A DNA stretch of 36,753 bases from Planctomycetota bacterium (GTDB lineage Bacteria; Planctomycetota; Planctomycetia; Planctomycetales; Planctomycetaceae), in the NCBI GenBank assembly GCA_021781115.1, contig JAJXXL010000332.1:1-36753 (forward strand). The letters run 5' to 3'. The position numbers and the translations under genes are program-made. Numbering within the stretch: position 1 is the first letter of the stretch; each line of letters opens with the position of its first letter. Under the pieces are notes generated by a model, which worked only from the letters and a program-made list of their open reading frames with translations, was not told the DNA's origin and did no database searches. Below are positions 28 through 12,440 of this stretch, piece after piece.

Positions 28-417
28 ATGACCAAGTGGCTCATTACAAAGGCGAGCCGCGGCGTAAAATGGCAACTCGTCGAGTTTCTCGGTCCAAATG
101 GCGGCGAGTCAGCAGGCATCGTTGACTTGATGGCAATTCGCAAGGACCACGGGCAAACGTCTGGCGGAATCAGGCGAGGCGACCTCTTCGAGATCATTCT
201 TCTGCAAGTGAAGGGTGGTAATGCGAGGTGGCCGACACAGTCAGACATTGAGCGGTTGCGGCGGGTCGCCAGGCACCATCGGGCAAAATGTGTCCTGCTT
301 GCAGAGTGGAAAAAGGGGAGTCAGCCGTGTTTTTACCGCCTGACAAATCGATCGAAGCCGCGGGTCGATCTCACGCGGGAATGGGTCGAAGCGCCCCCGA
401 CCGAGGTTTTTGGATAG
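28..417 (+). CDS. Hypothetical protein, possible PD-(D/E)xK-like nuclease fold
   Basis: 129-aa ATG ORF. 'GIVDLMAIRKD...LFEIILLQVKGGNARWP' resembles a D...(E/Q)xK core (QVK variant) with adjacent strands; weak family recognition only. Confidence 0.5.
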   Translation: MTKWLITKASRGVKWQLVEFLGPNGGESAGIVDLMAIRKDHGQTSGGIRRGDLFEIILLQVKGGNARWPTQSDIERLRRVARHHRAKCVLLAEWKKGSQPCFYRLTNRSKPRVDLTREWVEAPPTEVFG

Positions 418-439
418 TATCGGCGGCCGCAACTGACAC

Positions 440-488
440 ATCGTCAGCCGCGACGCAACTGGCTGGCGCGCAGCGGGTTGTACATGAC
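440..488 (+). repeat. Interspersed repeat copy 1 (core atcgtcagccgcgacgcaactggctggcgcgcagcgggttgtacatgac)
   Basis: Hand alignment: about 44/49 identity with copy 2. Confidence 0.75.
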
Positions 489-618
489 GGTGTTCCTGAC
501 TATGCCGCCGTCCGGGGGGAAGCACCAGAACCAGACATCCATTAACTGCGGCTGGTTCGTACCGGAACGGCCGCGTCGGCACCGCGTTTCGGCGTGTGCA
601 TCGAGTTGGCGCATCGGC

Positions 619-667
619 ATCGTCAGCCGCGGCGCAACTTGCTGGCGCATTGCGGGTTGTACATGAC
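619..667 (+). repeat. Interspersed repeat copy 2 (atcgtcagccgcggcgcaacttgctggcgcattgcgggttgtacatgac)
   Basis: Hand alignment with copies 1 and 3, no gaps over 49 bp. Confidence 0.75.
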
Positions 668-886
668 GATCCGCCCGGGTCTGACCAAAATGGTGGGCGC
701 AACGCCGCCGATTTGCAGCGTACGCGGGTGGGCTACGATGGGTGCCGATTTCGCATACTCCCTGCGCGGCTCTTCGCGACGAGCCGCGCACGAAGTAAGT
801 GGTCGAGCGAACAATAATAGTAGGGCCGACAACTCGGCGGGCACTCCCAACACCGCGTCAGGCCTCCTTGCGAGCCCGGCGTCAGG

Positions 887-935
887 ATCGTCGGACTCGG
901 CGCAACGTGTTGTTGCATTATGGGTTGTACATGAC
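887..935 (+). repeat. Interspersed repeat copy 3 (atcgtcggactcggcgcaacgtgttgttgcattatgggttgtacatgac)
   Basis: About 40/49 identity with copy 2 by hand; invariant gggttgtacatgac tail. Confidence 0.7.
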
Positions 936-1156
936 GCTGTCCCTGACGAAGCAGCCGCGTCAGGACGGGGCGGGCGGCGGCGACGTTTTCTTGGGGGGTG
1001 TCGGTTCGACGGTTGGCCATGGTGCGCAGGTGGGCGAATGGGGTATACAAATCTTGGGGCCGAAGCCGCGAAGGCGTCGAGAACCGAAATCGCACACAGC
1101 ACGACTGACCAGAAAACCAGGGTCTCTTTGTTTCGTTTCCTGTTCGGTTTTGAAAT

Positions 1157-2848
1157 TCATAGCCGGCCGCTACGGAACACACCGTAAATCAGCCAAATGC
1201 CCAACAGGCTCGACAGGGCGAACGTGGGAATGGTGATCCACCACGATGCACTGCCCGTGGTGCGAATGACCATGGCCGATGCGACGATCAGGGCCGACAT
1301 GACCAAGCCGATGACGATGCGGTTGCTGGATCGGTCGACTTCCGTCATGAGCTGTTCGAGGTGCCGGTGCTCCAGTTGAATTCGCAGGTCGTCGTGGCTC
1401 AGTTTTTGCAGTGTTCGCCCCAAATGGACTGGAAATTCGTGCAGCAGCCGGCCGAGTAGCCGGGCTTCGTCGAACAGTTTGCCCGCCATGCGCTGAGGGT
1501 TGTAGCGCTCGGTCACGAGGCGTTCGATGATTGGCGCCAGGTGTTCGGTCAGTTTGAACTCGGGATCGAGTTCGCGGCCCACGCCCTCGAGCGTGACAAT
1601 GGCGCGAATCAGCAGCATCAGGTCGGCGGGGTAGCGAATGCCGTGCACGGCCAGGATGTTGACAAAATCTCGCAGCAACTGGCCAACATCAATTTTTTCG
1701 AGCGGCAACCCATAATACCCGTCGATAAAATCCCGCAGGTCGCTGCGCAGCAGCGGGCGATCGATCGGGCGATAAGGCTTGCCCACCAGCAGCACCTGAT
1801 CGACCGCCCGGGCGACGTCGCCGCGAATCACGGCGGTGAGCAGGTCAATCAGTTCCTCGCGTTTTTCGTCATCAAGTCGGCCGACCATGCCGTAGTCGAT
1901 CAGGCCAATGACGCCGTCGGGCAGCACGCGGATGTTGCCGGGGTGTGGGTCGCCGTGAAACAGGCCGAATTCAAAAGCCATTTTGATAAAAATGCGAGCG
2001 CCGTTGGCAGCGACCTCGGCGGGATTCAAGCCGGCAGCGATCAGGGCGGCCCGGTCATTGACCCGCAAGCCGTCGACAAAATCCATCGTGACGACGGCTT
2101 CGGAAGTCAGTTCCCAGTAGACCTGCGGGACGAAGAGTGTGGCGTCATTGCGGAACAGTCGGCGAAATTCGTCGATCGTCCGCCCTTCGCGATAAAAATT
2201 GACTTCGCGATGGATTGAGCGGGAGAACTGACTCACCAGCCCAACGGGGTCGAATATTCCGGCTTCCGGAATATGCTTCTCGATCAACTGGGCCAATTCG
2301 GTCATCAGCGACAGATCGCGTTCCAGTTCACTCACCACGCCCGGCCGGCGGATTTTCACGGCCAGCGGCGTTCCACCAAGATGGCGTGCGCGGTGCACTT
2401 GCGCGAGCGAACCGGCGGCAAGTGGTTCGACCTCGAAACTGGCGAATAACCGTGCGGCGGGGGCTCCCAGTTCCTCTTCGAGAATGCGAACCGCCTCTGC
2501 GCCGGGAAATGGCGGCACCCGTTCCTGAAGGTGTTCGAGTTCATTGACGACGGCCGGGGGCACCAGATCGGGGCGCGTGCTGGCCAGTTGCCCGAATTTG
2601 ACAAACGTCGGCCCCAGCTCTTCCAGGGCCAGACGGATCCGCTGGGCCCGCGTCAACCGGGGGTGGGCGTCGGCCCGCCGCCGCAACACCACCCGCCGCC
2701 ACCATTGCAGGTATGGCATCAGCCGCAATTGCTCGACGACGTCGCCGAAGCCGTAGTTGAGCAGCACCGTCGCGATTTCGCGAAGGCGCCCCAGATTGCG
2801 CAGAAATCGCAACGGCGAAATGTCGAGCACGACCTGTCCTTGAGGCAA
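1157..2848 (-). CDS. ubiB: ABC1/AarF/UbiB family atypical protein kinase
   Basis: 563 aa with 'LGPTFVKFGQLASTRPDLVP', 'PLAAGSLAQVHRA', 'LAVKIRRPGV', 'FGLFHGDPHPGNIRVL', 'GLIDYGMVGRL' motifs and two C-terminal TM segments. Position 2848 is a TTG; the true start may be a nearby GTG. Confidence 0.93.
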   Translation of the reverse strand: MPQGQVVLDISPLRFLRNLGRLREIATVLLNYGFGDVVEQLRLMPYLQWWRRVVLRRRADAHPRLTRAQRIRLALEELGPTFVKFGQLASTRPDLVPPAVVNELEHLQERVPPFPGAEAVRILEEELGAPAARLFASFEVEPLAAGSLAQVHRARHLGGTPLAVKIRRPGVVSELERDLSLMTELAQLIEKHIPEAGIFDPVGLVSQFSRSIHREVNFYREGRTIDEFRRLFRNDATLFVPQVYWELTSEAVVTMDFVDGLRVNDRAALIAAGLNPAEVAANGARIFIKMAFEFGLFHGDPHPGNIRVLPDGVIGLIDYGMVGRLDDEKREELIDLLTAVIRGDVARAVDQVLLVGKPYRPIDRPLLRSDLRDFIDGYYGLPLEKIDVGQLLRDFVNILAVHGIRYPADLMLLIRAIVTLEGVGRELDPEFKLTEHLAPIIERLVTERYNPQRMAGKLFDEARLLGRLLHEFPVHLGRTLQKLSHDDLRIQLEHRHLEQLMTEVDRSSNRIVIGLVMSALIVASAMVIRTTGSASWWITIPTFALSSLLGIWLIYGVFRSGRL

Positions 2849-8360: not shown

Positions 8361-11300
8361 ATGAGCGCTCACGACGATTCGGCAGCCGTGTTGAAGTTCC
8401 CGCGTCTTGCCGCGCGGCGGCCGTTGGCACAGCCCGCTTGCGCCGCGGCTGAACCCGGCATGGAAGCCGTTTTAGCAGCAGACAAGTCGCGCGGGTTACT
8501 GTTGCATGAATTCTTTGAAGCTCAGGCCGATGCTCACCCCGACCGTACCGCTCTGGTATGCGGCGGCGTGCAGATCACGTACGCCGGGCTGGAGCGGGCC
8601 GCGAACCAGTTGGCCCGGCGGCTGCGTGCGGGGGGCGTGGGGCATGGCGATTGTGTGGCGTTTCAATTGCCACGATCGCTGGACGTACCGATTGCACTGT
8701 TGGCCATTTTGAAAACCGGCGCCGCCTACGTACCGCTCGACTTCGAATGGCCCCGCGATCGCGTCGCCTATATCCTGGCCGACTGCCACGTGCATACGTT
8801 CATCACGGTCGACGATCACACAGCGGGGGGAGTCGCGTGCCACGTGCATCGGCTCGAGCCGGCGGCCGGCCGCGCGTCGTCAGCCAGCCGACCGGCTGAA
8901 CGCTTGACGCGGGCCGAATCGGGCGCGACGCCCGACGACCCGTGCTATGTGATTTACACGTCAGGTTCGACGGGCCGGCCCAAAGGGGTCGAAATCCTGC
9001 ATCGGAACGCGTGCAACCTCGTCCTGGCCGAACGCGACCTGTTCGGCGTTCAGCCCGATGATCGCGTGTTTCAGGGGTTTTCTCCAGCGTTTGACGCATC
9101 AGTCGAGGAGTTCTGGCTGGCGTTTGCGACCGGTGCGGCGCTGGTCATTGGCACATCGGAAATCGTGCATTCCGGGCCTGGCCTGTCGCGCTGGCTCGAA
9201 GAACAGCGCGTGTCAGTGCTGTCGTGCGTACCGACCTTGTTGTCGATGATGGACGGCGACGCCACATCAGTACGGTTGCTGATCGTGGGGGGGGAGCAGT
9301 GCCCGATTGACCTGGTGCGGCGATGGTGCCGCCCTGGCCGGCGAATGTTCAATACCTACGGCCCGACCGAAGCCACCGTCATCGCGACCTGTACCGAATG
9401 CGACCCCGCGCGGCCCGTGACAATCGGCCGCCCGATTGCGAATTACTCGGTGCACATTCTCGACGAAGCACTGCAACCTGTCGCGCCCGGCGAAGCAGGT
9501 GAATTGCATATCGGCGGCGCTGGCCTGGCGCGAGGCTATGTCGGCTTGCCCGAATTGACGCGGCAGAAGTTCATCGAAAATGTCCTGCTGCCGGGCGGTG
9601 GTTTCGCGCCGCGATTGTACAAAACGGGCGATCTGGCCCGGTTTACCGAAGCGGGCGACATCGATTTTCTAGGGCGGATCGACGCGCAGGTCAAACTGCG
9701 CGGGTTTCGCATCGAACTGACGGAAATCGAGGCGGCGCTGGCCGAGCAGCCGGGTGTGCTCGCTGCCGCCGTGGCCCTTCGTGAAGATGTGCCGGGTGTG
9801 CAGTACCTGGTCGGCTACATAGTGCCGCGGTCCGACGCCAACCCGCCCAGCGATGATGAACTGAAGGCGGCGTTGCGGCAGCGATTGCCGGCGTACATGG
9901 TTCCCGCCGTGATTGACGCGATCGAGGAATTGCCCCGGCTGACGAGTGGCAAACTCGACCGAAAGGCGCTGCCCGCGCCCCGCCCCCGCGAGGCGCCCGC
10001 GGGAGCGGGCGTGACTCTGCCGCGAACCGACATTGAGAGAGCTCTGGCCGCGATCTGGAATGAACTGTTCGCACCCACTCCGGTATCGATTGGCGACAAT
10101 TTCTTTCTCGACCTCGGCGGGCATTCGCTGCTGGCGGCGCGCATGGTTTCGGCGATGCGCCGCGACCCGCGATTCGAACGCCTGTCGATGCTTGATTTGT
10201 ATAACTTCCCGACGATCGCCGCGCTGGCGCAGCGGCTCGAAGAGGCTCCGGCGAAGGCGGTTGCCGCGGCGGCAAAAGCGGCGGTGGTCGACACGGCGGC
10301 GGTCGTGCATCGCCCGTCGTCGCGAGCACATTATTTCTGCGGGTTGATGCAGCTCGGCACGCTGTATTTCGTGCTGGGCCTGTTTTCGCTGCAATGGCTC
10401 GCCCCCTACCTGACCTATAGCTGGATGATCGACGACGAGTACCCCGTGATTGAGGCGGTGCTGGGGTCGCTGGCCAGCTTGATCGTGGTATACCCCGTGA
10501 TGCTGGTGGCTTCGATCGTTGTCAAATGGACCGTCATCGGGCGGTATAAGCCGGGCGATTACCCGCTGTGGGGCGCGTATTACTTTCGCTGGTGGCTGGT
10601 CAACGCGTTTCAATCGGTCGTGCCGGTGAGCTACCTGGCGGGCACCCCGCTGTTGAACTGGTATTATCGCGTCATGGGGGCGCACATCGGCTCGAACGTG
10701 TACCTCGGCTCAGACAATGCATCTGTGTTCGACCTGCTGAGCATTGGCGATGACTCGGCCGTGGGCGTCGATTCCAGCCTGGCCTGTCACACCGTCGAAA
10801 ACGGCTGGCTGCGGCTGGGAACGGTGCGCATCGGACGGCGCTGCATTGTCGGTTCGCGGTGTGTCGTCCGCGAGAATGCAGTGCTTGAAGACGGCGCGCA
10901 GCTCGACGACCTGTCGCTGTTGCCCCGGGGTGGTCGCGTGGGCCTCGGCCAGCGATGGGCCGGGGCGCCCGCGCGGCTCGCGCCGGGTGCGAGCCACGCC
11001 GCGCCCTCCGCATTTCCACGCCCGAGTCGGCTGCGGCGGTGCATATACGGCGGCTTGTATGTCCTCGGTGTGCTGGCGGTGCCCATCTTTGTTCTCGCGG
11101 CGATCTTTCCCGGCATGATGGTCATGTCACATCTCAACGCGCACGACGATTATTACTGGTATCTCGCATTATCGCCGGTGGTCGCCGTGTCATTCGTCAG
11201 TTTGCTGTGCCTGGAAATCGCGCTGATCAAATGGCTGCTGCTGGGCCGGGTCAAGCCGGGCCGGTACCCGCTGTTCAGCGGGTTCGTGGCCCGAAAATGG

Positions 11301-12440
11301 TTCGTCGACAAGTTGATGGAACTGAGTCTCGACGTTGTCGGCACGCTGTACGCCACGTTGTATCTGGCGCCCTGGTACCGGCTGCTCGGTGCGCGGTTGG
11401 GCCGCCGCACCGAAATCTCGACCGCCTCGTTCATTTCGCCCGACCTGCTCGAACTGGGCGACGAGGCATTCATTGCTGACGCGGTTTCGCTGGGCGCTGC
11501 CCGCGTCGAGCGGGGCGGCGTGTCGATTGCCCCGGTGCGCGTCGGCAAGCGCACGTTCATTGGCAACAGTGCGCTGCTGCCGCCCGGCGCCGACATCGGC
11601 GACAATTGCCTCATCGGCTGCCTTTCGTCGCCGCCGGCTGCCGATGAGGCGCGCCGGCCGGGTTCGGCCTGGCTCGGATCGCCCGCGTTTCACCTGCCCC
11701 AGCGGCAGCAAAGCGCGCCGTTCGCCGAGGATTGCACCTATCGCCCCGCGCGTAAACTGTGGTGGCAGCGGGCCGCCATGGAATTCGTCCGGATCACGCT
11801 GCCCTCGACCTGCTTCATCATGCTGACCAGCGTGTTGCTGTCGGTGCTGGTCATGTTGCGCGGCGAAACTTACCCCGCGGTGATTGTGGCCGCCTTTCCG
11901 GTCTTGTATGCCGCATTCGGCTGCGCCGCGGCCCTGATCGTCATTGTCCTGAAATGGACGCTCATGGGCCGTTACCGACCCGGCGAGCGGCCGCTGTGGA
12001 GCCCGTTCGTTTGGCGCACGGAACTGGTGACGGCCATGCACGACAATCTGGCTCATGTTTTTCTGACCGGCATGTTGGCGGGAACGCCGTTCCTGGCCTG
12101 GTACTTGCGGCTCCTGGGCGCGAAGATTGGGCGGCGGGTGTATCTCGCGTCAGACGAGTTGACCGAATTCGATCTGGTGCAGATTGGCGACGACGCCTGC
12201 ATCAACCATGACGCCACACTGCAAACCCATCTGTTTGAAGACCGCGTCATGAAAATGGGCCCGGTCGAAGTCGGTGCCGGGTGCAATGTGGGCAGCCTGT
12301 CGCTCGTGTTGTACGGCGCCCGCATGGAGCCCGGTTCGACGCTGGGCGACCTGTCGCTGCTCATGAAAGGCGAGGTTTTGCCCGCGCATTCGCGGTGGGA
12401 AGGAATTCCAGCGCAACGCGCGCCGGCGACCGGCGGTTGA
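8361..12440 (+). CDS. Pls/PosA family single-module non-ribosomal peptide synthetase (A-T-[TM-LbH]x3)
   Basis: 1359 aa. A-domain motifs 'YVIYTSGSTGRPKGVEI', 'FDASVEEFW', 'NTYGPTEATV', 'YKTGDLARF', 'GRIDAQVKLRGFRIELTEIE', 'LTSGKLDRKAL'; T domain 'NFFLDLGGHSLLAARM'; no C or TE domain; C-terminal half has three TM-pair + hexapeptide-like units. Confidence 0.93.
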   Translation: MSAHDDSAAVLKFPRLAARRPLAQPACAAAEPGMEAVLAADKSRGLLLHEFFEAQADAHPDRTALVCGGVQITYAGLERAANQLARRLRAGGVGHGDCVAFQLPRSLDVPIALLAILKTGAAYVPLDFEWPRDRVAYILADCHVHTFITVDDHTAGGVACHVHRLEPAAGRASSASRPAERLTRAESGATPDDPCYVIYTSGSTGRPKGVEILHRNACNLVLAERDLFGVQPDDRVFQGFSPAFDASVEEFWLAFATGAALVIGTSEIVHSGPGLSRWLEEQRVSVLSCVPTLLSMMDGDATSVRLLIVGGEQCPIDLVRRWCRPGRRMFNTYGPTEATVIATCTECDPARPVTIGRPIANYSVHILDEALQPVAPGEAGELHIGGAGLARGYVGLPELTRQKFIENVLLPGGGFAPRLYKTGDLARFTEAGDIDFLGRIDAQVKLRGFRIELTEIEAALAEQPGVLAAAVALREDVPGVQYLVGYIVPRSDANPPSDDELKAALRQRLPAYMVPAVIDAIEELPRLTSGKLDRKALPAPRPREAPAGAGVTLPRTDIERALAAIWNELFAPTPVSIGDNFFLDLGGHSLLAARMVSAMRRDPRFERLSMLDLYNFPTIAALAQRLEEAPAKAVAAAAKAAVVDTAAVVHRPSSRAHYFCGLMQLGTLYFVLGLFSLQWLAPYLTYSWMIDDEYPVIEAVLGSLASLIVVYPVMLVASIVVKWTVIGRYKPGDYPLWGAYYFRWWLVNAFQSVVPVSYLAGTPLLNWYYRVMGAHIGSNVYLGSDNASVFDLLSIGDDSAVGVDSSLACHTVENGWLRLGTVRIGRRCIVGSRCVVRENAVLEDGAQLDDLSLLPRGGRVGLGQRWAGAPARLAPGASHAAPSAFPRPSRLRRCIYGGLYVLGVLAVPIFVLAAIFPGMMVMSHLNAHDDYYWYLALSPVVAVSFVSLLCLEIALIKWLLLGRVKPGRYPLFSGFVARKWFVDKLMELSLDVVGTLYATLYLAPWYRLLGARLGRRTEISTASFISPDLLELGDEAFIADAVSLGAARVERGGVSIAPVRVGKRTFIGNSALLPPGADIGDNCLIGCLSSPPAADEARRPGSAWLGSPAFHLPQRQQSAPFAEDCTYRPARKLWWQRAAMEFVRITLPSTCFIMLTSVLLSVLVMLRGETYPAVIVAAFPVLYAAFGCAAALIVIVLKWTLMGRYRPGERPLWSPFVWRTELVTAMHDNLAHVFLTGMLAGTPFLAWYLRLLGAKIGRRVYLASDELTEFDLVQIGDDACINHDATLQTHLFEDRVMKMGPVEVGAGCNVGSLSLVLYGARMEPGSTLGDLSLLMKGEVLPAHSRWEGIPAQRAPATGG
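9994..10011. repeat. Perfect short inverted repeat (cgcccgc-ggga-gcgggcg) in the A-T interdomain linker
   Basis: 7-bp perfect stem, 4-nt loop, read directly. Confidence 0.55.
10975..10995. repeat. Perfect short inverted repeat (ggctcgc-gccgggt-gcgagcc) in an interdomain linker of the NRPS
   Basis: 7-bp perfect stem, 7-nt loop, read directly. Confidence 0.5.

Follow-up and report, generated by a model that had tools for sequence, protein, structure and literature searches.

Short palindromic repeat families in bacteria mostly pair in opposite orientation, and the best understood of them are tied to a Y1 transposase. The described class nearest to the repeats reported here is that of the CGTC-tagged REPs, which are 20-40 bp long, consist of an unpaired CGTC tag, a stem of 8-9 bp and a loop of 4-5 nt, and occur mostly as head-to-head dimers, the head-to-tail arrangement being negligible (Di Nocera et al. 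2013, PMC3733652).

The window analyzed here is a stretch of 36,753 nucleotides that constitutes contig C97 of a 5.74-Mb draft genome of a Planctomycetota bacterium (591 contigs, 95% complete). The initial annotation of this DNA reported three same-orientation repeats, unevenly spaced by 179 and 268 bp, in a non-coding tract, and we find them where it placed them. We refer to the repeat family that they represent as element E. Like the CGTC-tagged REPs, element E is palindrome-like and intergenic, starts with CGTC, has a high copy number, lacks a dedicated transposase and has some copies within gene ends. Unlike the CGTC-tagged REPs, it is 48-60 bp long, with a CGTCA complementary to a TGACG at the far end and without a comparable stem, and its copies are arranged head-to-tail only (69 pairs versus 0 opposite). 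Element E likewise resembles the GTAG REPs, BIMEs and REPINs in being a high-copy extragenic repeat that forms composite clusters, but it differs from the GTAG REPs with their RAYT in having neither a GTAG tag nor an alternating orientation and in residing in a genome without a Y1 transposase.

Results

The three copies in the window are 73-75% identical across 71 bp (Table 1). While the initial annotation located them correctly, the conserved core, CGTCAG...TGACG, ends one base further 3' than it proposed. The weak similarity that it noted past the 3' end is real and corresponds to a second TGACG ending 11-12 bp beyond the core. Copy 1 has such an extended end, with a second TGAC at approximately position 501; copy 3, in which the second TGACG ends at position 948, is partly decayed and carries CGTCGG instead of CGTCAG. 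A search of the genome with GGGTTGTACATGAC yields 4 exact matches and 9 matches with no more than one mismatch, against 0 for the reversed pattern, which argues that the three copies did not arise by chance; upon inspection, about 5 or 6 of the 9 matches belong to the element E family and the remainder are apparently fortuitous. A second motif, motif F, sits between copies 2 and 3, with a genome-search match at 781-803. Elsewhere in the window, a 1359-amino acid ORF (8361-12440) looks, when its sequence is read by eye, like a Pls/PosA-type non-ribosomal peptide synthetase with an adenylation domain, a carrier motif, and membrane and hexapeptide-like repeats.

Table 1. Positions of the repeat copies, motif F and flanking features in the window.
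Feature	Position	Strand	Basis or remark
Intergenic tract holding the array	418..1156	.	Between ORF 28-417 (+) and UbiB/ABC1 gene 1157-2848 (-)
Element E copy 1, core CGTCAG...TGACG	442..489	+	Exact gapped-pattern match; model R1, 57.8 bits
Element E copy 2, core	621..668	+	Exact gapped-pattern match; model R1, 61.4 bits
Motif F, adjacent inverted pair TACTCCCTGCGCGGCTCTTCG / CGACGAGCCGCGCACGAAGTA + AGTGGT	756..803	.	Inverted repeat I1
Element E copy 3, core	889..936	+	Model R1, 47.1 bits; sequence
ABC1/UbiB atypical kinase gene (downstream flank, context only)	1157..2848	-	PF03109, E-value 1.4e-70

To define the family, iterated profile searches were run and a sequence-only covariance model, R1, was built from 53 copies. 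In the genome, they detect at least 151 matches (best E-value 1.6e-17). Likewise, a gapped pattern that specifies 19 bases has 105 exact matches genome-wide, compared with 0 for the reversed pattern used as a control. The initial annotation had looked to two signs of a genuine family, further copies in the genome and conservation among relatives; the three copies prove to be far from alone, whereas no conservation among relatives is seen. The consensus is CGTCAGNCG-N6-AAC-N17-GTT-NNNCN-TGACG, and the CGTC at the left end of the alignment is invariant. Array statistics were compiled for 61 fetched loci containing 131 copies, and among these the core is 48 bp long in 96 copies, with 49- and 50-bp variants also present, and the second TGACG is found in 60. 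The whole unit runs from CGTCAG to CTGACG, 6-bp inverted repeats of one another.

Across the 48 bp of element E, only CGTCA and TGACG can pair, and an inner stem is absent. Covariation tests on the family alignment revealed no nested covarying helix, the folding energy of the arrays resembles that of control DNA, and an Rfam search returned no match. The cgcaa...ttgcg hairpin that the initial annotation drew in copy 2 is not a family-wide feature, and the covarying RNA structure that it considered finds neither covariation nor a fold signal. The lack of covariation and of excess folding suggests that recognition of element E, if any, would be of double-stranded DNA.

In the 61 loci, 46 arrays contain 2-6 copies, and all 69 pairs of neighboring copies have the same orientation. 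The array period ranges from 116 to 493 bp with a median of 235 bp. Although this repeat-spacer layout is like that of a CRISPR array, the repeats are divergent, the spacers measure 65-442 bp (with one of 948 bp) and spacer families are shared, whereas CRISPR repeats are nearly identical and their spacers regular, unique and 25-50 bp in length; the initial annotation was right to exclude a CRISPR. At nearly all 61 loci, no predicted gene extends across element E, the exceptions being read-through ORFs at L071 and L118. Genes flanking the arrays encode domains typical of planctomycetes (PSCyt, PSD and DUF1501), and no transposase family recurs among them. Many arrays adjoin the end of a contig, which falls on their 3' side in 30 cases and on their 5' side in 9; the arrays may therefore be longer than the assembly shows, and they appear to add to the fragmentation of the draft genome. 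A short ORF, MENELKTDPADLIEQDP..., occurs at five places (L071:3368-4189 on C131, and C567, C485, C492 and C133), and there is similarity to its tail beside several further arrays. This ORF, which has an alanine-rich tail and no Pfam match, runs through element E in frame.

Spacer modules are shared among arrays. Similarity clusters include 42 of 70 spacers, the same units of a spacer plus a copy of element E recur across arrays, and locus L112 differs from L113 by one extra unit of this kind. Between arrays that have only one side of element E in common, the homology breaks off at CGTCAG on the left and 12 bp beyond the core on the right, the sharp right-hand breaks being those of three arrays, L089, L094 and L126. 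These array comparisons show no fixed crossover point within element E. At its variable positions (the loop and others), the similarity between copies is 0.64 within arrays and 0.48 between arrays (p = 1.5e-9), a greater within-array likeness that local duplication predicts. Paralogous units differ at 3.4% of box positions, 30% of other element E positions and 19% of aligned spacer positions; the box positions were picked from the same data and copies lacking boxes would go unrecognized, so this partly circular comparison supports, rather than proves, recognition of the element.

Motif F, GAGCCGCGNACGAAGTNNGCGG, is frequently present as an inverted pair, with longer inverted pairs formed in certain spacers. 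We counted 28 copies in 20.5 kb of array DNA, 13 within 250 bp of arrays, and 0 elsewhere in the approximately 1.5 kb of flank searched per array side. Genome-wide, there are 25 matches to motif F and 1 to the control. Another short palindrome, GTAGACGCGGCGTCCCGCCGCGT, is seen repeatedly in or near the spacers and 3' flanks of the arrays at L056, L058, L052 and L071, and cluster A spacers at L080 contain TTTTGCGTCTTTTGTGTTTTATTGTGGCCACTCC-type sequence.

Outside this genome, only two of 170 genomes of the order match element E at an E-value of 1e-4 or better, and they do so through one weak 26.6-bit sequence (G002:C264:21005-21069 and G133:C13:21005-21069). The two occurrences are identical, have the same coordinates in genomes of different genera and lie near the 3' end of a coding sequence; they may reflect a shared contig, contamination, a contig binned twice or a shared mobile element. 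A match in genome G013 falls within coding sequence and looks spurious. Nothing comparable to the family was found among 58 relatives searched, element E is not conserved in sister genera, and 400 kb sampled from each of two sister genomes contained no comparable arrays with shared families. An exact-pattern scan of 85,000 species genomes, which possibly left out the window's own genome, gave two single matches that we take as chance. Viral contigs yielded no match, and searches of plasmid and viral collections produced either chance-level matches or none.

We also searched for enzymes that could mobilize element E. No match to the Y1/RAYT transposase family (PF01797) was detected in this 95% complete genome, while 5 control genomes were positive. 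No integron integrase (TIGR02249) scored over the cut-off, and the best tyrosine recombinase of those scanned is XerD. Comparing the flanks of element E by eye revealed no consistent target-site duplication, and no parent transposon was found. An ISAZ013-type DDE transposase is present in two copies (C352:3280-4203 and C161:150-1073), one of them approximately 0.5 kb from an array; we rejected it as a parent since no more than two copies exist and the ends of the copy examined do not resemble element E or motif F.

Discussion

The initial annotation suggested REP/MITE-like repeats or a group of binding sites, and this class of explanation remains the best, although the known REP families provide no match. 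Element E differs from those families in orientation, structure and size, and its genome has no Y1 transposase, so we reject them; it is best read as REP/MITE-like in general kind, belonging to neither the GTAG REPs, the CGTC-tagged REPs nor another named family. Its inverted ends (CGTCAG/CTGACG) may make it like a MITE, a short, non-autonomous repeat with short terminal inverted repeats; a possible difference is that neither a target-site duplication nor a parent transposon was found. A limited search of the open-access literature found no earlier description, and one may exist elsewhere.

Element E is probably a repeat of this kind that spreads within this planctomycete lineage. On balance, we favor a lineage-specific, non-coding family that is recognized by a protein, spreads as modules and has its arrays reshaped by duplication and recombination. 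Some protein would bind element E as double-stranded DNA through the inverted TGACG half-sites and the inner AAC/GTT boxes, and the element would disperse in modules that include neighboring spacer DNA and, in many cases, motif F. Arrays would then enlarge, contract and swap modules via tandem duplication and recombination between copies, processes that would keep every copy in one orientation. Evidence against this reading is that no transposase or recombinase could be tied to element E and that no target-site duplication was seen.

It is possible, if rather unlikely, that element E instead serves as a site on the chromosome to which a nucleoid, segregation or regulatory protein binds, and that it is retained by host selection and not by mobility. 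The boxes are much more conserved than the spacers and the copies are nearly all intergenic, as such a site would have it, and array orientation correlates with local GC skew in short flanks (p = 2e-5) and with four-fold-site skew when gene strand is allowed for. However, the 21 longest contigs show no such agreement between orientation and contig skew (12 of 21, or 5 of 9 where the skew is significant), and the array in the window is opposite to the skew expectation. We therefore do not claim a link to replication orientation and have dropped the idea of replication-oriented sites. Array periods also lack clear helical phasing, and both the lack of conservation of element E in sister genera and the duplication and reshuffling of whole modules speak against a site under host selection.

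Element E could also be the recombination site of a cassette-like system that stacks spacer-plus-element units in one orientation at dozens of chromosomal loci, using neither an integron integrase nor an HUH transposase, which we consider unlikely. An integron-like site proper, at which modules are inserted in a fixed orientation next to a resident copy, is less likely still. The strict head-to-tail order, the shared modules, the gain or loss of single units and the inverted order of the AAC...GTT boxes are in keeping with such a site, and integron attC arrays, including CALIN, are likewise same-orientation arrays with differing spacers and a lineage-specific site sequence. Nevertheless, the genome yields no integron integrase over the cut-off, element E has neither the attC layout nor a nested covarying hairpin, homology never switches at a fixed point within it, the arrays occupy many loci, and the spacers are non-coding by the ORF scoring used.

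We regard it as very unlikely that the arrays represent genes for structured RNAs or RNA elements that are transcribed: the outer CGTCA/TGACG pairing is possible and arrays tend to be antisense to their 5' neighbor (36 versus 17, p = 0.013), but the Rfam, covariation and folding results all run the other way. Least probable of all, the repeats would be the degenerate 3' end of a multicopy gene such as the short MENELKTDP... ORF beside several arrays, since, although this ORF and one G002/G133 gene read through element E in the same frame, array periods have no multiple-of-three bias, the ORF occurs at only 5 places and is missing from most arrays.

As a probable REP/MITE-like repeat, element E combines a purely head-to-tail order, a companion motif and shuffled modules in a genome without a detectable Y1 transposase or integron integrase. 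The family would test how such repeats spread when the usual enzyme is lacking, and whether recombination between copies of element E drives the turnover of intergenic DNA.
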